Source of the DNA: Caballeronia turbans | Lineage (GTDB): Bacteria; Pseudomonadota; Gammaproteobacteria; Burkholderiales; Burkholderiaceae | Direction of reading: 5' to 3' | NCBI GenBank assembly: GCA_001544655.2 | Contig: FCOD02000016.1 | Span: 99,016 to 163,015, forward strand | Length of the DNA stretch: 64,000 nucleotides | In this document: piece after piece, positions 10,337 through 23,567 of the stretch | How positions within the stretch are numbered: position 1 is the stretch's first letter | Layout: each line of letters starts with the position of its first letter | The notes under the pieces: model-generated | What the model saw: the letters and a program-made list of their open reading frames with translations, nothing else | Database searches by the model: none | What the model was told of the DNA's origin: nothing | Made by a program: the position numbers and the translations under genes

Positions 10337-10412
10337 AGGAGGGTAGCCCCCCTTCTTCGCAGAAGGAGAGCCCCCTAAGAACCGTACGTGCGAGTTTCCC
10401 CGCATACGGCTC
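10337..10412 (-). ncRNA. Group II intron domains V and VI
   Basis: Domain V is a 34-nt hairpin beginning GAGCCGTATG and ending GTACGGTTC, with a GAAA tetraloop and the catalytic AGC triad. Domain VI follows: TAGGGGG pairs with CCCTCCTA, an inner CCTTCT/AGAAGG stem carries a GCGA loop, and an unpaired A in GCTACCC is the likely branch point. These are the active-site RNA elements for splicing. Confidence 0.9.
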
Positions 10413-10435
10413 CAATCTACGTACAAAGCCCAGCT

Positions 10436-12136
10436 TTATGACCGGGCCGGCTTAGTTAGCGCAATTTTACCTACATGCACTTGTCGGTGGCAGTCGGGAT
10501 GCAATAGCACTCGATTGAAGAGGGCGTCGGAACCACCATGCATCCGGTACTCCAGATGATGATCGTGCCAACCGGTCTCTCGTGTCAGAGCACAGCCGCA
10601 GTGCGCACACAGCCCGCCTTGCAATAGGTATAGCGAAACCCATTGCTTGCGATGTCGCATTGATGCTTCCATGCGCGCTTGTCGCAGTTGTTCGCCATAC
10701 TGCTCCCAATCAGGATCAAAAGGATTGAAGTCGCCTTTGATCTTGCGATGCCGCCTGATCGATGTACCGCGAAGCTGGTACAACTCTGTCAAGCCGTTAC
10801 TGCCATCGTCTCGAACTACAGGAACAGCAAAAATCCAGTGTCGGGCGCCATCTGAATGAAAGTATTTCTTCCTCACCCATTCAGCACCCTTGTTTGGATG
10901 TCGCCGTTTTGACCACCACCAAAGTCTCCGGAAGATCAGAGACTCCATGCGGCTATACGCCTGCTTGGCTACGACGGGGCTGTGATACTGCGCCCAACCC
11001 CGTAGCATCTGGTTCAGCAATCGGATCAAATCCTCGTGCGTTACCGTCTTGTTGCCACTGATCGTTTCCGACACCTTTCGATAGAACGTCTGCACGTTCT
11101 TCTTGCTCGGCTTGATGAGCAGCTTTTCCGAATACTTCCGGAAATTCCACCCAAGGAAATCGAAGCCTTCGTCAATGTGGGTGATCCGCGTTTTTGTCTC
11201 GGACAGTTGCAAGCCCCGAACAGCAAGGAATGCTTCCACCCAAGGCCTGACCTCGTTTTCCAGAATCTCTTTCGAGTCGCCGGTGATCACAAAGTCATCC
11301 GCGTATCGCACCACATTCACTTTCAGCTTCTTGGCTTTCGCGATTCCCAACGTCGCACCGAGGTGCGCGATCAGTTCACGCTCCAGCCCGTTCAGCGTCA
11401 CGTTTGCCAGCGTCGGGGAGATGATGCCTCCCTGCGGCGTACCGGCCTCAGTCGCCTGTAGCTGCCCCTTGTGAATCAGGCCAGCCTTCAACCACTTCCG
11501 GAGGATCTCCTTGTCCATCGGGACATGGCTTTCCAACCAGTCGTGGTTGATCCAGTCAAAGCAGCCTTTGATATCCGCTTCCAGCACCCATCGGGCCGAG
11601 CCCTTCTGGGACATTGCGACGAATATCTGCGACATGGCATCGGCTGTCGAGCGATTGAGTCTGAATCCATAAGAGTTCGGATCACTCGTCGATTCCGACA
11701 CCGGCTCCAAGGCCAGCAGATACAGGGCTTGCATCGCCCTGTCCCGCATGGTCGGAATGCCCAGAGGGCGCTCGTTTCCATTGGCCTTGGGGATAAAGAC
11801 TCTCCGTAATGGCAAAGGCTTATATCCACGCCGCTTCAACCTGCCGATGGCTTCCCACCGGCTCTCAGGCGAATCCCACAGTTCGCGATCGACTCCGGCC
11901 GTTCGCGCACCTTGGTTCTGCGTAACACGTCGTACCGCGTACAGCTTTGCGGACAACGTGCGGGTAAGCATCCGTTGCAAGGCTTTCACCCTGCGCCAGT
12001 CGCCTTCCCGCGTCGCCTTCGCAATTCGTATCTGCATCCCTCTCACGTTCCGTCCGACGCGACGCCAATCTACGGCGTGCCAGTTGTCAGGCACGTGGGA
12101 AAGCGCAGATCCATCCTTTCGGACAGATACTCTCAT
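10436..12136 (-). CDS. ltrA: Group II intron reverse transcriptase/maturase with HNH endonuclease
   Basis: This 566-residue protein helps the intron RNA splice and copies it into new DNA sites. Domains in order: RT-0 and fingers-palm, with IPKANGNERPLGIPTMRDR near 115-133, ADIKGCFDWINH near 187-198, GTPQGGIISP near 232-241 and the catalytic YADD at 278-281; then the maturase X domain (about 350-440, RGWAQYHSP); then an HNH endonuclease at about 500-545 (CAHCG...DHHLEYRMHGG...HPDCHRQVH). All key residues are present and the frame is open, so the intron is probably mobile. The HNH domain argues against the terminator-targeting class C introns. Confidence 0.95.
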   Translation of the reverse strand: MRVSVRKDGSALSHVPDNWHAVDWRRVGRNVRGMQIRIAKATREGDWRRVKALQRMLTRTLSAKLYAVRRVTQNQGARTAGVDRELWDSPESRWEAIGRLKRRGYKPLPLRRVFIPKANGNERPLGIPTMRDRAMQALYLLALEPVSESTSDPNSYGFRLNRSTADAMSQIFVAMSQKGSARWVLEADIKGCFDWINHDWLESHVPMDKEILRKWLKAGLIHKGQLQATEAGTPQGGIISPTLANVTLNGLERELIAHLGATLGIAKAKKLKVNVVRYADDFVITGDSKEILENEVRPWVEAFLAVRGLQLSETKTRITHIDEGFDFLGWNFRKYSEKLLIKPSKKNVQTFYRKVSETISGNKTVTHEDLIRLLNQMLRGWAQYHSPVVAKQAYSRMESLIFRRLWWWSKRRHPNKGAEWVRKKYFHSDGARHWIFAVPVVRDDGSNGLTELYQLRGTSIRRHRKIKGDFNPFDPDWEQYGEQLRQARMEASMRHRKQWVSLYLLQGGLCAHCGCALTRETGWHDHHLEYRMHGGSDALFNRVLLHPDCHRQVHVGKIALTKPARS

Positions 12137-13170
12137 GCTGCTCTCCTACCTTGGGTTGATCATTCCCGCAGCAGAAGGCGCATCTTCCCCAGCGGGGTAG
12201 ACACACCCCGCTGGGAAACAACAGTTGAACAAATATGGACGCATGCGCCCATATGTCATCCTGGTACTACGCACGAACGCGAGCGCTCGTGTCTCACCAA
12301 GTCACAAGGTCTGTCAGCCATCTTGCGACGGTAGACCAGACGGAAGTCTGCCCGCTTTCGCGTGGGATGATGTCTCAATCCCTATCCGGACCATTACAGC
12401 CCGTCATTCGCTTTCTCCGTCATCCTCTACCCGCATCGTCAACAGCGTTCCTTGCGGGCCGCCTGCCAGCCCAACTGCACTGGCAACGATACGGGCTTAC
12501 CGTGTTCCCGGCCTGCCACATGACTGACGTAGGTTCTGCCTTTCCCCCGGCGGTCCTCAGACGACGTAACCCGAATTTCAAGCGAGTTATCCGACCGCAC
12601 ACCGTTTTGGTTAATGCCTATCAGCAGCTTTGGCATCGTCCTACTTACGAGGTTTATCAGCAGTTCACTTCCGTTAACCGTATCAGCCAGCCTAGCGCCT
12701 CAACCCCCTTGCTGCTAGGAGTCTCCGAATACCTGTTTCACAACAGGCAGTCACCCAAACTTCGGGGGCTACATTGTCAGAGAAGCTTCACACCCCACCG
12801 TTGCCAGTGACGCATGTCCTCTTAGGCTACTGCTGGTCGTACAGCAGGTTCTCTACCTCATAGGGACTAATCCCGTGAGGTTGAACAATGACAAACCGAG
12901 CTTGCGCTCGACCTTCCCTGAAATCACATACGCCAATCCGCTTTGTTAGCGGAGTTGAAGCCGCTAACTGGGCGGAACCTGACGGTAATCAGGTCAATGC
13001 AATTACGCGCAAGGGTCCGAAGACTCCTGCGCATCTACAGCTACGATTCCAAGCCAAACGGCGCTCGGTTTCGTTTGCTACACAAGGGGTGGCCCAAGGT
13101 GCCACCAATGGGACGGCTTGCGCCGTCCAGTCGATGCGACTCACGTCGCACTAAAAACCGTAGGATAGCA

Positions 13171-16861: not shown

Positions 16862-17092
16862 GCAAAAAGTTACCGAATTCGCCGATCGCACCGACGGCGC
16901 GCCCCCAAGGGTGAAAGCGGCTTGCAAGCACAACCTGTCGAATGAACGGTCAATCGGTCGTGCGAAGGTCGGAAGTGGCAACAAAACCTCTCAATCGCTC
17001 CGGATGCGGCGAAACTTTGCTAGGATTCGCAGGTTTTCCCAGAACTCCACGATCCCTTTCGACGCAAGTTCGTTGCGCCGGGTCCCCAACGG

Positions 17093-17656
17093 ATGGCATC
17101 AGACAAGGAACTCGCCGACTTCCTGGCGAGCGTCGAAAGACGCGCGTTCAAGCAGACCGTGTACACCGTTCGCGACGACGACGCGGCGCTCGACATCGTG
17201 CAAGACGCGATGATCAAGCTGGCGGAGAAGTACGGCGACCGCCCATCGAGCGAGCTTCCGCTTTTATTCCAGCGTATCCTTCAGAACGCGACGCACGATT
17301 ATTTCCGTCGCCAGAAGGTGCGCAACACCTGGGTCAGCCTCTTCTCGTCCTTCGGCAACGCCGACGACGACGAATTCGACCCACTCGAAACCTTCGAATC
17401 CGAGGACAGCGCGGTCGGCAGCGAAAGCAGCGAGAGCCGTCTGGAGCGCGAGCAGGTATTGAATCTGATCGACGCCGAAATCCAGAAACTGCCGGCGCGT
17501 CAACGGGAAGCGTTTCTCATGCGTTACTGGGAAGACATGGATGTCGCTGAGACGGCCGCCGCGATGGGGTGCTCCGAGGGCAGCGTGAAGACACATTGCT
17601 CACGCGCTACGCACGCTCTCGCACAAGCCCTGAAAGCCAAAGGGATCACGCTATGA
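17093..17656 (+). CDS. ECF-type RNA polymerase sigma factor
   Basis: A 187-residue sigma-70-family protein with region 2 at about residues 10-75 (DDDAALDIVQDAMIKLAEKYGD and LLFQRILQNATHDYFRRQKVRN) and region 4 at about 120-180 (LPARQREAFLMRYWEDMDVAETAAAMGCSEGSVKTHCSRATHAL, a clear helix-turn-helix). Regions 1 and 3 are absent, as in extracytoplasmic-function sigmas. An acidic Ser/Glu-rich linker joins the domains. Its stop overlaps the ATG of the DUF3619 gene, implying translational coupling and co-regulation with that small membrane protein. Confidence 0.9.
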   Translation: MASDKELADFLASVERRAFKQTVYTVRDDDAALDIVQDAMIKLAEKYGDRPSSELPLLFQRILQNATHDYFRRQKVRNTWVSLFSSFGNADDDEFDPLETFESEDSAVGSESSESRLEREQVLNLIDAEIQKLPARQREAFLMRYWEDMDVAETAAAMGCSEGSVKTHCSRATHALAQALKAKGITL

Positions 17657-18105
17657 GTTCCGCTCTTGAAACGAAGGAAAACGAGTTCGCGCTGAAGGTC
17701 GTGCGCGCGCTGGACGAGAACACGTCGAATATTCCGGCTGCCGCCGTCGACCGGCTGCGCGAGGCGCGCCGTGCCGCGATCGCGCGCAAGAAGCCGGAGA
17801 AAGTGGCCGTGGCGATGGCCGCGCCCGCGTTCGCGCCGGCTCTAGCAGGCGCGGGCGCCACGCTCACGACGGGCGGCACCGACGACGATCGTCGTCCGAA
17901 GGGACTGCTCGCACGCCTTGGCGGGCTGGGCCTCGCTTGGCCGCTCGCGGCGCTCGTCATCGGGCTGGCGGGCATCGCGTATTGGGAAGATCAGCAGCGT
18001 AAGGCGGAACTCGCCGATATCGACGCGGCCATGATGAGCGACAGCCTGCCGATCGACGCCTATCTGGATCACGGGTTCAACGCGTATCTGACGCGCAATC
18101 ATTAA
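17653..18105 (+). CDS. DUF3619 family single-pass membrane protein (possible anti-sigma)
   Basis: A 150-residue protein that starts inside the sigma gene's stop (ATGA overlap). The N-terminal half is soluble and charged (ENEFALKVVRALDENTSNIPAAAVDRLREARR), one transmembrane segment lies at about residues 97-115 (LAWPLAALVIGLAGIAYW), and a short C-terminal tail ends SLPIDAYLDHGFNAYLTRNH. The cytosolic-helix, single-TM, short-periplasmic-tail plan and the coupling to an ECF sigma are what an anti-sigma factor would look like. I see no ZAS zinc motif, so this role is inference. Confidence 0.8.
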   Translation: MSSALETKENEFALKVVRALDENTSNIPAAAVDRLREARRAAIARKKPEKVAVAMAAPAFAPALAGAGATLTTGGTDDDRRPKGLLARLGGLGLAWPLAALVIGLAGIAYWEDQQRKAELADIDAAMMSDSLPIDAYLDHGFNAYLTRNH

Positions 18106-18133
18106 GCACTGAGTACAGCGGGGGAATTTTCGG

Positions 18134-18904
18134 GTGAGTTACAAGCGCGGTCTCGCGATTGTCTTCGGTTGCGCGATTGCGGGCCTGGTTGCCTTCGCCG
18201 CGACCTATCCGCGCTTTTATTCCCCCGCCGCCGTCCCGCCTTCATCCGCCGCGGCGCCGAGCGGCGGCTCCGGCACGACGGCCGATTCGAACGCCTCGAC
18301 GCTGTCCGCGCTGGCGTCCACCGGCCCGCTCTCCTGGAGCCGCCTCACCGAAGCGCAGCATGCGGCGCTCGCACCCTTCGCGTCGCAATGGGATTCGTTC
18401 TCCGACGAGCGCAAGCAGAAGTGGCTGAAGATCGCGTCACGATTTCATCGGATGTCGCCCGAGGCTCAGAAGCATCTGCATCAGCGCATGGAGGAATGGG
18501 TGCGCCTCACGCCCGACCAGCGCAAGGTCGCGCGCGAGAACTATCAGGTTTCCAAATCGGTGCCGCCGGACAAGCGCGAAAAGGCGTGGGACGCCTATCA
18601 GAAGCTCTCCGAAGAGCAGAAGAAAAAACTGGCCGCGAGCGAGCACGTGCGCCGGCCGACGATCGTCTCCGCGCCGCCTACGGGCAAGACCGAAGTGAAG
18701 GACATCAATCGCCTCGTCACGGCGCGCGAGCAAGGGCACGCTCCCGGACATGCGGAAGGCGGATCGGGTGCGGCAGCCGCGCCGTCGGCGCCCATCTCCG
18801 GCGTGCCGACCCAACCCGCTATTCCGAACGCCGCGAGCATCGTCCCGGCCACACCGATTCCGGTATCGCCGCAACAGGCGCCTTCGATGTACAACGGCTC
18901 GTGA
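18134..18904 (+). CDS. DUF3106 family exported or membrane-anchored protein
   Basis: A 256-residue protein starting with GTG, with an N-terminal hydrophobic segment (about 7-24) acting as signal or anchor. Its middle repeats a helical theme typical of DUF3106: W-x-x-L-x(6)-A-P, W-D-x-F-x(6)-W, MSPEAQKHLHQRMEEW, LTPDQRKVARENYQ, LSEEQKKKL. The C-terminal third is Pro/Ala-rich and probably disordered. Its stop overlaps the GTG start of the RDD gene. Function unknown; the family travels with ECF sigma and DUF3619 genes in beta-proteobacteria. Confidence 0.8.
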   Translation: MSYKRGLAIVFGCAIAGLVAFAATYPRFYSPAAVPPSSAAAPSGGSGTTADSNASTLSALASTGPLSWSRLTEAQHAALAPFASQWDSFSDERKQKWLKIASRFHRMSPEAQKHLHQRMEEWVRLTPDQRKVARENYQVSKSVPPDKREKAWDAYQKLSEEQKKKLAASEHVRRPTIVSAPPTGKTEVKDINRLVTAREQGHAPGHAEGGSGAAAAPSAPISGVPTQPAIPNAASIVPATPIPVSPQQAPSMYNGS

Positions 18905-19422
18905 GCGCTCAGCCCGCAGTCGTCACCGTCGACCCGATGCGCGCGCCCACGCTGCGCCGCCGCCTCGCAACGATGCTCTACGAAAGCGTGATCCTCTTCG
19001 GCGTGGTGTTCCTCGCCGGCTATCTTTTCAGCACGCTCACGCAGCAACGCAACGGCCTCACGCATCACAACTGGCTGATGTCGTGGATCGGCATCGTGCT
19101 CGCGGCCTACTTCGTGTATTTCTGGACGCACGGCGGCCAGACCCTGCCGATGAAGACCTGGCGCGTCAAGGTCGTCGATGCGCAGGGCCAGCCCGTCGGA
19201 CCCGCGCGCGCGTTCGCGCGCTACGTGCTCGCGTGGCTGTGGTTCCTGCCGCCGCTCGCGCTGCATCCGCTCTTCTCCCTCGCCGTACCGCAGACGCTCG
19301 CCGTCTTCGCGGCGTGGGTCGCGCTGTGGGCCGCCGCCGTGTGGCTCGATCCGGCGCGCCAGTTCCTCCATGATCGCCTCGCCGGCACGCGCATCGTCGC
19401 AGTACAACGTCCTGCCAAGTAA
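18901..19422 (+). CDS. RDD family integral membrane protein
   Basis: A 173-residue membrane protein with an early Arg residue (TLRRRLATMLYESVILFG) and paired Asp residues near the end (WLDPARQFLHDRLAGTRIV), the RDD pattern, and four to five hydrophobic segments between. The GTG at 18901 overlaps the DUF3106 stop by 4 nt, so it is fourth in the sigma/DUF3619/DUF3106/RDD operon. Some RDD proteins act as ion antiporters, but no substrate can be assigned. Confidence 0.85.
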   Translation: MSAQPAVVTVDPMRAPTLRRRLATMLYESVILFGVVFLAGYLFSTLTQQRNGLTHHNWLMSWIGIVLAAYFVYFWTHGGQTLPMKTWRVKVVDAQGQPVGPARAFARYVLAWLWFLPPLALHPLFSLAVPQTLAVFAAWVALWAAAVWLDPARQFLHDRLAGTRIVAVQRPAK

Positions 19423-19438
19423 TAAGAACTTCTCGTGA

Positions 19439-19456
19439 CTGTCACGGCTCGGTCAC
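19439..19456 (+). promoter_or_regulatory. Candidate Pho box (PhoB site)
   Basis: Two direct repeats, CTGTCAC (19439-19445) and CGGTCAC (19450-19456), are separated by 4 nt and so repeat with the 11-bp period of PhoB sites. The second differs from the first by one base. The site stands just before the lipid-phosphoesterase/glycosyltransferase/diacylglycerol-kinase operon. A transcript started at PhoB geometry would begin near 19480, favouring the internal starts of the next gene. Function is inferred from sequence only. Confidence 0.6.
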
Positions 19457-19501
19457 AGCCGCATGGCGCAATGCGCATACCGAAACCCGATGCGCGAGCC
19501 A

Positions 19502-20482
19502 ATGGCCTTCAACTCGTCAGTTCACCCGGCAATCGACCCGCCCTCCCCCTTCAGCTTCGACAATAGCGAGCGCACCGGTCCCTTCGCACTGCGATCCGAG
19601 TCCACCGAATCATCCGAGTCTGCTTCCGCTGGCGCGCCGGGCTTGTCCGACTCGCGCGCCACGGCGTCCGTCCATCACGACGATCTCGCTGATTCGGCCG
19701 ATAAGCCGCACCGGTATCGCACGATCTGGCTCTCGGACATCCATCTCGGTTCCGGCGGCTGCCAGGCGCACTATCTCCTCGATTTCCTTCGGCACCACGA
19801 ATCGGAATATCTGTACCTCGTCGGCGACATCATCGACGGATGGCAATTGCGCAAAGGCTGGTTCTGGCCGCAGGCGCATAACGACGTCGTGCAGAAGATC
19901 CTGCGCAAGGCGCGCAAGGGCACGCAGGTCGTCTACATCCCCGGCAACCACGATGAAGCCGCGCGGCAGTTCTGCGATCTCGCGTTCGGCGACATCCACG
20001 TGCGCGGCGAGGCCTTCCACACGACCCTTGCGGGCAAGCGCCTGTGGATCGTACACGGCGATCTCTTCGACGGCGTGATCCAGCACGCAAAATGGCTCGC
20101 CTATCTCGGCGACACCGCCTACACGGCGATCCTGCTGCTCAACCGCTGGTTCAATCGCGTGCGCACGAGGCTCGGCTTCAATTACTGGTCGCTGTCGCAG
20201 TACCTGAAGCATCAGGTGAAGAACGCGGTGAACTTCATTTCCCAGTTCGAACGCGTGATGACCGACGAAGCACGCCGCCGCGGCTGCGACGGCGTCGTAT
20301 GCGGGCACATCCACAAGGCCGAGATCCGCGACATCGACGGCATTCTCTACTGCAACGACGGCGACTGGGTCGAGAGTCTCTCGGCGCTCGTCGAAACCTA
20401 TGACGGCGAACTGAAGGTCGTCTACTGGACCGTGATGCGCTCGCCGGAAGCGCGCCTGACGCGCACACGCGCGACCGTCTAG
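19502..20482 (+). CDS. PlcP/LpxH-like metallophosphoesterase (COG2908)
   Basis: A calcineurin-fold phosphoesterase. The metal-site motifs are complete: SDIHLGSGGCQ, GDIIDGW, GNHDE, HGDLFDG and CGHIHKAEI. Annotation pipelines usually name this family UDP-2,3-diacylglucosamine diphosphatase (LpxH). However, the WFWPQAHNDVVQKILRKARKGTQVVYIPGNHDE stretch and an adjacent GT4 gene match the PlcP phospholipase C family, which releases diacylglycerol from phospholipids under phosphate stress. About 60-75 low-complexity residues precede the domain. ATGs at 19463, 19490 and 19502 are in frame; 19502 is chosen because it follows a GCGAG and lies downstream of the expected PhoB-type transcript start. Substrate remains inferred. 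Confidence 0.85.
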   Translation: MAFNSSVHPAIDPPSPFSFDNSERTGPFALRSESTESSESASAGAPGLSDSRATASVHHDDLADSADKPHRYRTIWLSDIHLGSGGCQAHYLLDFLRHHESEYLYLVGDIIDGWQLRKGWFWPQAHNDVVQKILRKARKGTQVVYIPGNHDEAARQFCDLAFGDIHVRGEAFHTTLAGKRLWIVHGDLFDGVIQHAKWLAYLGDTAYTAILLLNRWFNRVRTRLGFNYWSLSQYLKHQVKNAVNFISQFERVMTDEARRRGCDGVVCGHIHKAEIRDIDGILYCNDGDWVESLSALVETYDGELKVVYWTVMRSPEARLTRTRATV

Positions 20483-20530
20483 CCATCGCGCCACGCCATG
20501 ACAGGCAACACCAACTCTGGGCCGCATCCG

Positions 20531-21562
20531 ATGAAAATCATGATCGTTACCGACGCATGGGAGCCGCAGGTCAATGGCGTCGTGCGCACTCTCACGCAAA
20601 CGACGAAGGAACTCACCGCGCTCGGTCATCGCGTGGAGTTGCTCACGCCGCTCGAATTCAGAACGATTCCTTGCCCGACCTATCCCGAGATTCGCCTGTC
20701 GCTGCTGCCGGGCCGGCGCGTCGCCGAGCGTATCGACGCATTCGCGCCGGACGCGCTGCATATCGCGACGGAAGGCCCGCTCGGGCTCGCTGCGCGCTCG
20801 TATGCGCTGCGTCACAAGCTGCCGTTCACGACCGCATATCACACGCGTTTTCCGGAGTATGTGAAAGCGCGCTTCGGCATTCCGCTCGCGATGACGTATC
20901 GCTTTCTGCACTGGTTCCATCGCGACTCGCAGGCGGTGATGGCGCCGACGCCCGTCGTCAAGAGCGACCTCGAACGCTTCGGCTTCGATAACGTCGTGCT
21001 GTGGACGCGCGGCGTCGATCTCGACATCTTTCGTCCAATGGACTCGAAGGTGCTCGACACCGCGCGGCCGATCTTTTTGTATGTCGGGCGCGTCGCGGTC
21101 GAGAAGAACGTCGAGGCGTTTCTGAAGCTCGATCTGCCCGGTTCGAAGTGGGTCGCGGGCGAAGGCCCGGCGCTCGCGGAGCTGAAGTCGCGCTACACGA
21201 ACGTCAACTATCTCGGCGTGCTGTCGCAGCCGGAGCTGGCGAAAGTCTACGCGGCGGCGGACGTATTCGTCTTTCCGAGCCGCACCGATACCTTCGGCCT
21301 GGTGCTGCTCGAAGCGATGTCCTGCGGCACGCCGGTCGCGGCGTATCCGGTGACGGGCCCGATCGACGTGCTCGGCGAACACGGCCCGGGCGCGCTCGAC
21401 GAGGATCTGCGCGAAGCCTGCCTGCAAGCGCTGAAGATCGAGCGCGCCGATGCGCGCGCGTGGGCCGAGCGCTTCTCGTGGCGCGCGGCGTCGGAGCAGT
21501 TCGCCTCGCATCTTCGGCAGTTCGAGTCGCGCGCCGCCAGTTCGGACCGGGCGGCCGCATGA
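20531..21562 (+). CDS. GT4-family glycosyltransferase, candidate diacylglycerol glycosyltransferase
   Basis: A 343-residue GT-B glycosyltransferase. The N-terminal acceptor domain opens MKIMIVTDAWEPQVNGVVRTL, the glycine loop of this family, and the C-terminal donor domain holds the FPSRTDTFGLVLLEAMSCGTPVAAYPVTGP block with the E-x7-E motif. It resembles GDP-mannose or UDP-sugar dependent GT4 enzymes, including Agt, which glycosylates the diacylglycerol released by PlcP. A start at 20498 is possible; MKIM is preferred. It follows the phosphoesterase within about 50 nt and overlaps the diacylglycerol kinase start. Confidence 0.85.
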   Translation: MKIMIVTDAWEPQVNGVVRTLTQTTKELTALGHRVELLTPLEFRTIPCPTYPEIRLSLLPGRRVAERIDAFAPDALHIATEGPLGLAARSYALRHKLPFTTAYHTRFPEYVKARFGIPLAMTYRFLHWFHRDSQAVMAPTPVVKSDLERFGFDNVVLWTRGVDLDIFRPMDSKVLDTARPIFLYVGRVAVEKNVEAFLKLDLPGSKWVAGEGPALAELKSRYTNVNYLGVLSQPELAKVYAAADVFVFPSRTDTFGLVLLEAMSCGTPVAAYPVTGPIDVLGEHGPGALDEDLREACLQALKIERADARAWAERFSWRAASEQFASHLRQFESRAASSDRAAA

Positions 21563-22113
21563 CGCGACGCGCCGTGGCGCAGGAGAAAGCCGAAGCGAAC
21601 GCGCGCGCCGGGTCGTACGCGGCGGCCCGCGCGCACGATCCGTTCGACGACGACATTGAAGAGATCGACGATACGCCGTCTCAGCCGACCGAGCCGCTCG
21701 GCCCCGACGACCTGCCCTTCAATCCGTACAAGGGCAACCGCGGCTTCACGCGCGCGTGGCACGCGATGAAGAATTCGCTCTACGGCTTTCGCGTCGCGAT
21801 CCGCGAGGAAAGCGCGTTTCGGCAGGAGCTGACGCTGGCCGCGATCCTGCTGCCATGCAGCCTCTTCGTACCGGTCGCGCCGGTCGAGCGCGCGGCGCTG
21901 ATCGCGTCGGTGCTGCTGGTGCTCATCGTCGAATTGCTCAACTCGAGCGTCGAGGCGGCGATCGACCGCATTTCGCTCGAACGCCACGAACTGTCGAAGC
22001 GGGCCAAGGATTTCGGCAGCGCGGCGGTGATGGTCGCGCTCGGCGTCTGCGTCATCACGTGGGGCCTGATTGTGTGGCCGCTTGCATCCGCGTGGCTCGC
22101 GCGTATCTTATAA
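21559..22113 (+). CDS. dgkA: Diacylglycerol kinase
   Basis: DgkA phosphorylates diacylglycerol to phosphatidic acid, returning it to phospholipid synthesis. The catalytic C-terminal part (about residues 62-184) has three membrane helices and the signature ELLNSSVEAAIDRISLERHELSKRAKDFGSAAV. An acidic, probably disordered N-terminal extension of about 60 residues (HDPFDDDIEEIDDTPSQ) is unusual against the roughly 120-residue E. coli enzyme. The ATG overlaps the glycosyltransferase stop (ATGA), implying coupled translation. In context it could compete with, or recycle from, the glycolipid branch. Confidence 0.93.
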   Translation: MTRRAVAQEKAEANARAGSYAAARAHDPFDDDIEEIDDTPSQPTEPLGPDDLPFNPYKGNRGFTRAWHAMKNSLYGFRVAIREESAFRQELTLAAILLPCSLFVPVAPVERAALIASVLLVLIVELLNSSVEAAIDRISLERHELSKRAKDFGSAAVMVALGVCVITWGLIVWPLASAWLARIL

Positions 22114-22164
22114 AAGAGAGGAGCCGCGCGCAAAGCCCGCGTCCGTGCAGCCGAACGACCGGTT

Positions 22165-22170
22165 TATAAT
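22165..22170 (+). promoter_or_regulatory. -10 box for the TetR-LOG-SDR genes
   Basis: A perfect TATAAT 86 nt before the TetR-family ATG, after dgkA ends. No strong -35 is obvious. Confidence 0.4.
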
Positions 22171-22256
22171 CGTCCGACATTCTCAAAAATAGCAACGGAG
22201 CGGCCGCGCGAACGCTCATCCCGAGCCGACGCGGCCCGATCCCAAGGTCGGACGAC

Positions 22257-22982
22257 ATGGAAGCCAAACCACCCCGCCGCACCCGCGAACGGATACTCGA
22301 GCTGTCGCTGAAGTTGTTCAACGATATCGGCGAGCCGAACGTCACCACGACGACGATCGCCGAAGAGATGGAAATCAGTCCGGGTAACCTGTACTACCAT
22401 TTCCGCAACAAAGACGACATCATCAACAGCATCTTCGCGCAGTTCGAGCAGCAGATTCAGAAGCGCCTGCGCTTTCCTGACGATCATCGCCCGACGATCG
22501 ACGAGATGTGGTCGTATCTGCAATACATGGCGGATTTCCTCTGGACTTACCGCTTCCTGTATCGCGACCTGAACGACCTGCTCGCGCGCAACCGCACGCT
22601 GGAAACGCACTTTAAGCAGATCATCACGCACAAGGTGCACTTCGCGAGCCAGTTGTGCGAGGCGCTCGTCGCCGATCAGGAAATGGTCGCGACGCCCGAA
22701 GAGATCAAGGTGATCGCGACCAATATCGGCGTGATCGCCACGTACTGGCTTTCGTACCAGTACGTGATGAATCCGCGCAAGTACAACGATCAGGAAGCGA
22801 TCCGCGCCGAGCTGCATCAGGCGAGCCTGCATATCATCTCGATCATGGCGCCGTATCTGCGCGGACGCTCGCGCCAGTTATTCGATGACCTCGTTTCCGG
22901 TAAGCTTCCGAAGCGCGAGTATGCGGACTTCCTGCCGCCGCGCGACGAGGTATCGAAGACCGAAACAAAGGATTCCAGATAA
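22257..22982 (+). CDS. TetR family transcriptional regulator
   Basis: A 241-residue regulator. The N-terminal helix-turn-helix (about 8-55) reads RERILELSLKLFNDIGEPNVTTTTIAEEMEISPGNLYYHFRNKDDII, the classic TetR_N pattern. The C-terminal ligand domain is helical and large. The ligand is unknown. The LOG gene starts at the base after its stop, so the two are co-transcribed. Confidence 0.92.
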   Translation: MEAKPPRRTRERILELSLKLFNDIGEPNVTTTTIAEEMEISPGNLYYHFRNKDDIINSIFAQFEQQIQKRLRFPDDHRPTIDEMWSYLQYMADFLWTYRFLYRDLNDLLARNRTLETHFKQIITHKVHFASQLCEALVADQEMVATPEEIKVIATNIGVIATYWLSYQYVMNPRKYNDQEAIRAELHQASLHIISIMAPYLRGRSRQLFDDLVSGKLPKREYADFLPPRDEVSKTETKDSR

Positions 22983-23567
22983 ATGAAGGCAGTATGTGTC
23001 TATTGCGGCTCCTCGAACGGAGCCCGCCCCGTCTATGCGCAAGCGGCCAAGGCGTTCGGCCGCGCGCTCGTCGAGAACGATCTTTCGCTCGTGTATGGCG
23101 GCGGCCGCGTCGGACTGATGGGCCTCATCGCCGATGAAGTGCTCGCCGCGGGCGGCCGCGCAGTGGGCGTGATTCCCGAGCTGCTGCTCGCGAAGGAAGT
23201 CGGCCATACCGATCTTACCGAACTGCACGTCGTGCCCGATATGCACGAGCGCAAGAAGAAAATGGCCGACCTCTCCGATGCGTTCGTCGCGATGCCGGGC
23301 GGCGTCGGCACGTTCGAGGAGTTTTTCGAGGTCTACACGTGGGCGCAGCTCGGATATCACCAGAAGCCGGTCGGCCTGCTGGACGTGAACGGCTACTTCG
23401 ATCCCCTTTTGGCGATGCTGCGCCATACCGTCGAAGAAGGTTTCATGCGGGCGCCGTATCTCGACATGATCCAGGTCGCCGCCGAACCCGCCGAGATGAT
23501 CGGCAAACTCGCGCGCTACATTCCGCCCGCGAACGACAAGTGGTCCGAAAAGCGCAACGCCGTCTAA
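22983..23567 (+). CDS. LOG family protein (nucleotide 5'-monophosphate phosphoribohydrolase-like)
   Basis: A 194-residue Rossmann-type protein of the TIGR00730 family. The hallmark PGGVGTFEE lies at about residues 105-113 and the paired Arg/Lys segment MHERKKKMAD just before it; together they form the active site that cleaves cytokinin riboside or other nucleoside monophosphates to base and ribose 5-phosphate. The usual annotation is cytokinin riboside 5'-monophosphate phosphoribohydrolase. The physiological substrate in bacteria is not settled. It abuts the TetR gene and precedes the SDR gene by 10 nt. Confidence 0.92.
   Translation: MKAVCVYCGSSNGARPVYAQAAKAFGRALVENDLSLVYGGGRVGLMGLIADEVLAAGGRAVGVIPELLLAKEVGHTDLTELHVVPDMHERKKKMADLSDAFVAMPGGVGTFEEFFEVYTWAQLGYHQKPVGLLDVNGYFDPLLAMLRHTVEEGFMRAPYLDMIQVAAEPAEMIGKLARYIPPANDKWSEKRNAV

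Follow-up and report, generated by a model that had tools for sequence, protein, structure and literature searches.

The synthesis of phosphate-free glycolipids is already known from Alphaproteobacteria and Pseudomonas, and the PlcP-Agt pathway, Pho control included, has been published for other bacteria (PMC8528852, PMC4796936). In Pseudomonas aeruginosa, PA3219 (PlcP) is up 4.6-fold in low phosphate, and PA3218 (Agt1) makes monoglucosyldiacylglycerol (MGDG) and is reported to take only UDP-glucose, while Agt2 of the same species uses glucuronic acid as the sugar (PMC8528852). In Pseudomonas putida BIRD-1, PlcP and a diacylglycerol kinase have been named side by side as PHO-dependent lipid-remodeling proteins of the PlcP-DagK-OlsAB response, for which the passages available from PMC5082522 describe neither operon linkage nor fusion. 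We found a related unit, plcP-agt-dgkA, in a 64,000-nucleotide stretch of Caballeronia turbans (contig FCOD02000016.1, positions 99,016 to 163,015; hereafter the window, whose coordinates are used throughout), which is part of a 7.35-Mb genome in 120 contigs. We predict that this unit is a PhoB-activated operon for lipid remodeling during phosphate starvation in Caballeronia, a reading in which we have considerable confidence.

The P. aeruginosa operon is represented among our loci by a chromosome-like segment of the plasmid pPALO11 (CP075839.1, L138), which carries plcP-agt1 together with cyaB and azoR3 and which, from its gene order and these neighbors and partly from prior knowledge, we take to be PA3219-PA3218. 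It displays the same plcP-agt order as the Caballeronia unit, with protein identities of 52% and 50%, and tandem Pho half-sites upstream; unlike that unit, it gave no DgkA match within the 12.7 kb that were read. The Sinorhizobium meliloti PlcP (LZK74_26085, presumably SMc00171), whose gene lies beside those for an acyl-homoserine lactone (AHL) synthase and a LuxR regulator, is 51.8% identical to the window protein over 255 aa and falls on the same side of the tree described below. Here too the setting is unlike that in Caballeronia, as no GT4 or DgkA match was found within about 5 kb on either side of the S. meliloti plcP. The features of the Caballeronia unit are collected in Table 1.

Table 1. 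Predicted features of the plcP-agt-dgkA unit and its promoter region in the window.
Feature	Position	Strand	Basis or remark
Conserved promoter and leader block	19423..19501	+	Column identity across 30 genus loci
Third, weaker PhoB-like half-site, ACTTCTC	19428..19434	+	One 11-bp turn 5′ of the box
Predicted Pho box, half-sites CTGTCAC-GGCT-CGGTCAC	19439..19456	+	13/14 to consensus
-10-like hexamer, CGCAAT	19467..19472	+	10 bp 3′ of the box
plcP, COG2908-type metallophosphoesterase, putative intracellular phospholipase C	19502..20482	+	Profile, tree and identity; start by conservation
agt, GT4 glycosyltransferase, putative diacylglycerol glucosyltransferase	20531..21562	+	Agt1 match; in-frame ATG at 20498 possible
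dgkA, prokaryotic diacylglycerol kinase	21559..22113	+	DAGK_prokar; about 55–60 extra N-terminal residues

The phosphoesterase and glycosyltransferase of the unit

The initial annotation took the product of the first gene for a PlcP-like enzyme of the kind commonly misnamed LpxH, and sequence comparison bears this out: it is PlcP-like rather than LpxH. It scores 36.5 bits (cut-off 134) and 32.4 bits (cut-off 190.35) against the two curated LpxH models, and the one LpxH above cut-off in the genome (222 bits), with matches to nine distinct LpxH sequences of solved structure, is encoded on the same contig, 54 kb upstream. In a tree of 62 rows, a branch with 100/100 support splits 53 PlcP-like from 9 LpxH-like proteins, and both characterized PlcP relatives, those of P. 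aeruginosa and S. meliloti, are on the PlcP side. The sequence GNHD is present in 53/53 PlcP-like rows and GNRD in 8/9 LpxH-like rows, with the frames of seven weak class hits having been picked to hold GNR or GNH. As far as sequence goes, the initial annotation had staked its reading on the protein not grouping with LpxH and on a separate lpxH elsewhere in the genome, and both were found. (L081, for which the start finder gave 6 residues, is absent from the trees, L068 was represented by its C-terminal 290 residues and L179, of 99 residues, was left out; a spurious antisense frame of L175 in the first tree was removed from the 62-row tree.) The metal-binding motifs DxH, GDxxD, GNHD and GHxH are invariant, except for I or N in GHxH, in an alignment of 21 sequences comprising the window protein and those from 20 of 40 chosen loci. 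The window phosphoesterase shares 52% identity with the P. aeruginosa PlcP across 242 aa (50.4% over 262 in a second comparison) and is the sole PlcP match of the genome, the runner-up having an E-value of 0.29. The nearest named relative among the matches listed is from Caballeronia temeraria (92% identical), and a search of PDB sequences with the phosphoesterase gave no chain at E 0.001.

The glycosyltransferase is similarly set apart within the genome. With P. aeruginosa Agt1 as the query, the window GT4 is hit at 350 bits and the genome's second-ranking GT4 at 40 bits; the two proteins are 50% identical over 325 aa, making Agt1 the closest characterized relative found (the reverse search with the GT4 covered the plasmid collection only). 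With its membership of the GT4 family, its rank as the genome's best Agt1 match and its position adjoining plcP, the enzyme is by these sequence measures Agt-like, and the characterized relatives from P. aeruginosa and S. meliloti lend support to the PlcP and Agt identities given by the initial annotation.

The order phosphoesterase, GT4, dgkA on one strand 3′ of the box is as first annotated, and the spacing needed revision. The start of plcP at 19502 is an ATG in all 30 aligned genus loci, which are the best-scoring of the 57 genomes with a match; an alternative at 19490 is an ATG in 26/30, and the formerly assumed start at 19463, an ATG in only 10/30, was rejected. Since the gene starts at 19502, the box lies 45 bp 5′ of it and not immediately before it, as had been claimed. 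The alignment of the GT4 to Agt1 begins at the ATG at 20531, which is the most likely start and would place the gene 48 bp 3′ of the phosphoesterase (15 bp if the in-frame ATG at 20498 is used). The near-zero spacing of the initial annotation does not hold for this gene pair, and for that reason best fits the junction of GT4 and dgkA, where the annotated ATGA overlap (21559–21562) is kept in 28/30 genus loci (L013 and L026 differ).

The predicted promoter block upstream of plcP

The tandem CTGTCAC-N4-CGGTCAC upstream of the phosphoesterase gene, which the initial annotation reported as a direct repeat with an 11-bp period, is present at 19439–19456 and conserved in the genus. It matches 13 of the 14 informative positions of CTGTCAYNNNNCTGTCAY, and the next-best 14 sites on both strands of the window score 11/14. 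Genome-wide, four further sites deviate by no more than one mismatch: one is flanked by the phnF and phnG matches of a phosphonate operon, one is inside rpsC, and two overlap each other between genes for a gluconate-type transporter and a regulator of the AraC type. Because of the rpsC and AraC/transporter sites, and because the genome holds 85 sites with at most two mismatches vs. 52 for the reversed control, a match in a single genome is weak and proves little; the strong evidence for the predicted box is its conservation. Across the 30 genus loci, column identity is 97.5% in 19423–19438, 95.2% in the box, 83.0% in the 10-bp spacer (19457–19466) and 95.8% in 19467–19501, with flanks at 80.1% (19343–19419) and 79.7% (19505–19537). 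The box scores 13/14 in 25 of these loci, 12/14 in four and 10/14 in one (L022), and the tandem site stands 13 bp 5′ of AAT in all 30. In L022 (genome G027), an exact 11-bp deletion has removed one Pho half-site and left the AAT of the hexamer at its usual distance, as the tandem 11-bp architecture would predict.

A matrix built from the pstS and phnG boxes puts 19428–19445 at the top of the window's 127,966 positions and 19439–19456 in sixth place. On account of this ranking, we prefer to read the site as a row of three half-sites, ACTTCTC, CTGTCAC and CGGTCAC. Read by eye, the pstS promoter of the same genome has the same order of box, 10 bp and hexamer (AAGTCATATTACTGTCAC-10 bp-TATATT). The conserved block fits a predicted PhoB promoter of three 11-bp half-sites, a 10-bp spacer and a -10-like hexamer, and the locus combines conserved 11-bp tandem half-sites at promoter spacing with a PhoB encoded in the genome (352 bits, cut-off 296.2; its gene shares a contig with pstS), as would be expected of a Pho-regulon member. 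A sigma-70 consensus scan of 19380–22260 gave no match, and a tandem-repeat search of 17000–23500 found none. Within the conserved leader, ATGCGCAT and ATGCGCGA recur 18 bp apart (19472–19497), constituting a direct repeat and possibly a small hairpin.

Comparable boxes are found beyond the genus. The family set consists of 20 loci chosen from 269 matches, 19 from other genera and G034 from the same genus; 18 of them reach 11/14 (L100 and L101 only 10/14), and for 17 the shuffle value is at most 0.05 (the shuffles being first-order Markov samples, 200 per locus). The third half-site reads ANNTCTY in 12 of the 20 (L087–L098; counted by eye). All 17 named Burkholderia, Paraburkholderia, Caballeronia, Ralstonia and Cupriavidus loci likewise reach 11/14, 16 of them with a shuffle value of at most 0.05.

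DgkA, its linkage and the distribution of the unit

The third gene encodes a prokaryotic diacylglycerol kinase, which scores 109.8 bits against Pfam DAGK_prokar (cut-off 22.3) and shares 50% identity with E. coli DgkA across 115 aa. Residues E84, E125, N128, E132, K150 and D151, which we take to be catalytic, are invariant between the two; the Caballeronia protein differs in its operon partners and in about 55–60 N-terminal residues (window 21559–21740) that are absent from the E. coli protein. A second dgkA is found on another contig of the genome (G000:C50:22696-22995), with no plcP match near it.

The GT4 and DgkA genes both lie 3′ of plcP in 20/20 family loci and in 17/17 named Burkholderia-type, Ralstonia and Cupriavidus loci, that is, in 37/37 loci over the two Burkholderiaceae sets. 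Elsewhere, a downstream DgkA is found in none of the 20 class-wide loci (chosen from 76 matches) and in 9 of 63 other named loci, namely two from Polynucleobacter, four from SAR116 and three from metagenome bins; the 54 loci with no dgkA downstream, 7 of which hold less than 2 kb there, include two bins titled Burkholderiaceae (L212 and L233). In all four loci titled SAR116, plcP is directly followed by a single open frame of 467–468 residues with GT4 and DgkA domains (L225:6789-8183, and also L223, L224 and L227), both of which were above the Pfam cut-offs in the one tested (L225). The four assemblies represent one lineage, whose PlcP is placed with that of Polynucleobacter in the first tree (support 91/61), a weak hint of transfer. 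A further GT4-DgkA fusion, suggested in genome G068 by open-frame length, was rejected when checking revealed two genes. The conserved overlap, the synteny and the natural fusion support the placement of DgkA in the unit, in line with the initial annotation.

A plcP match is present in 57/58 genus genomes (7 only as fragments), in 269/299 Burkholderiaceae genomes sampled (some of the matches being fragments) and in 76/229 class genomes (12 of the 76 being LpxH-like or fragments), while PstS was matched in 58/58 genus genomes. Two wider searches gave at least 577 and at least 585 confirmed relatives, of which the best 80 of each were used. Within the genus, plcP is absent or broken in 6 of 8 genomes smaller than 5 Mb (G003, G009, G019, G026, G045 and G051) vs. 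2 of 49 larger ones (G040 and G056; Fisher p 2e-5), a count from which G027 (60% complete) was left out and in which frameshifts could be assembly errors. One guess is that the small genomes belong to host-bound symbionts.

Contigs of the virus collection, which may include host stretches, also carry plcP relatives (loci L261–L350). A GT4 is present at 41 of the best 80 plcP loci of this collection, and plcP at 10/10 loci found via the GT4; DgkA was found at none of these 90 loci. In L262 (a 178.7-kb contig), the plcP-agt pair is flanked by the genes for ThyX and a phage DNA primase, and ribonucleotide reductase comes next. In L278 (a 200.6-kb contig), a PstS-like gene matches a phage family and two other proteins have no match at all, and L270 yielded only an endonuclease/UvdE match, ten proteins of the three loci having been checked.

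The proposed lipid remodeling and competing explanations

From the gene identities, the promoter architecture and the three-gene linkage, we infer PhoB binding, expression, chemistry and flux as follows. When phosphate is low, phosphorylated PhoB would bind the tandem half-sites at 19428–19456 and activate plcP-agt-dgkA. PlcP, judging by its characterized relatives, would then convert a membrane phospholipid, for which phosphatidylethanolamine is a plausible candidate, to diacylglycerol with release of the phosphate head group, and Agt would join diacylglycerol to a sugar, most likely glucose, to form a phosphate-free glycolipid. In the least certain step, DgkA may convert diacylglycerol unused by Agt to phosphatidic acid, guarding against its build-up, and may also provide a return to phospholipid once phosphate is back. 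The psd-pssA genes, which the initial annotation had linked to the unit through phosphatidylethanolamine, constitute a genomic neighborhood only and add nothing to this proposal; psd, whose presumed start (read by eye) lies roughly 9 kb off on the opposite strand, does not belong to the unit. A group II intron (Rfam RF02012, RF00029; window 10338–12848, minus strand) separates the presumed psd gene from the presumed ilvC (both likewise read by eye).

Several observations weigh against this proposal. At the promoter, the -10-like hexamer is poor, the spacer of the box is GC-rich, and the box in its own register has only the sixth rank by the pstS/phnG matrix. The Ralstonia and Cupriavidus boxes (L195–L197) stand at another distance, and the counts at 11/14 do not demand a fixed box position. 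Most class-wide and other named plcP loci are without a clear box, as 11/14 is reached in only 8/20 and 24/63 of them, with 8/20 and 19/63 beating 95% of shuffles. In several Paraburkholderia-type loci, the DgkA match begins 350–430 bp after agt. As to function, DgkA would put phosphate back on lipid during scarcity, which makes for a possible futile cycle. The list of proteins lost in a Pseudomonas mutant names PlcP and not DagK (PMC5082522), and the available part of a report on Paraburkholderia xenovorans gives ornithine lipids in low phosphate as "data not shown", with no mention of glycolipids there (PMC7814305).

Some of these points also feed alternative explanations. PlcP and Agt might remodel lipids as proposed, with dgkA a passenger that serves another diacylglycerol source, e.g., periplasmic glucan decoration; the second dgkA of the genome, the loci with no dgkA downstream (20/20 class-wide and 54/63 other named, the short ones and L212 and L233 included) and the variable agt-dgkA distance in Paraburkholderia-type loci are what such a passenger would lead one to see. 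Its constancy in 37/37 Burkholderiaceae loci, the ATGA overlap kept in 28/30 genus loci and the natural fusion beside plcP in SAR116 argue the other way and leave us doubtful of this explanation, while granting it some weight. Unlikely, too, is a GT4 that takes another sugar or acceptor, so that its product is not MGDG. The sugar and acceptor are only inferred because the protein is below the cut-offs of all 23 NCBIfam families listed, its best model being GlcN-phosphatidylglycerol synthase (86.7 bits vs. 480), ahead of the diacylglycerol glucosyltransferase models NF049988 (the monoglucosyldiacylglycerol synthase, 53 vs. 400) and NF049987 (18.5 vs. 500), and P. aeruginosa Agt2 provides a precedent for glucuronic acid (PMC8528852). 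Nevertheless, its closest characterized relative found is Agt1, the enzyme reported to use UDP-glucose only (PMC8528852), which it matches 310 bits ahead of the other GT4s of the genome.

The remaining two explanations concern the upstream context and the phosphoesterase itself. A row of ECF sigma factor, DUF3619, DUF3106 and RDD genes (window 17093–19422), common to most family loci read, precedes the unit on the same strand, with 79 bp between the RDD stop and the plcP start, and the unit could be the tail of that operon, without phosphate control. This is improbable, as in 5/20 family loci (L102–L106) the RDD match ends 1.25–1.47 kb from the PlcP match, vs. the usual 0.16–0.34 kb, with plcP, agt and dgkA still together; moreover, the family locus L099 gave no RDD match and L101 none for the whole upstream row of four, and the promoter block keeps its conservation whatever the position of the RDD end. 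That the phosphoesterase instead acts on lipid A, as LpxH or an additional LpxH in a unit for lipopolysaccharide synthesis, is scarcely credible: 24 of 32 plasmid-collection records do label its relatives as UDP-2,3-diacylglucosamine diphosphatase, and it has in common with LpxH a weak profile match within the metallophosphoesterases. However, with scores far below both cut-offs, a true LpxH elsewhere in the genome, GNHD instead of GNRD and a place on the opposite side of the 100/100 branch, an LpxH function was rejected and membership of that family refuted.

On the PhoB-activated PlcP-Agt-DgkA reading, the coupling to DgkA is a variant of a known pathway. No description of a plcP-agt-dgkA unit in Burkholderiaceae or of the GT4-DgkA fusion was found in the mostly open-access literature searched; beyond it, a Burkholderia cenocepacia phosphorus-stress proteome may already list the proteins. 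Tentatively, and with rather less than even confidence, we posit that DgkA is a dedicated third enzyme of the module, that agt-dgkA constitutes a diacylglycerol branch point steering the flux either into glycolipid or back into phospholipid, embodied in SAR116 by a bifunctional polypeptide, and, separately, that the phage plcP-agt pair without the kinase would effect a one-way remodeling. If true, the latter would free host membrane phosphate for phage DNA. For the family, the first enzyme of the pathway is present in 269 of the 299 Burkholderiaceae genomes, yet three-quarters of the plasmid-collection records (24/32) name it as a lipid A enzyme. As the kinase and the glycosyltransferase overlap in the operon and share a polypeptide in SAR116, a return path from glycolipid to phospholipid would be directly testable.

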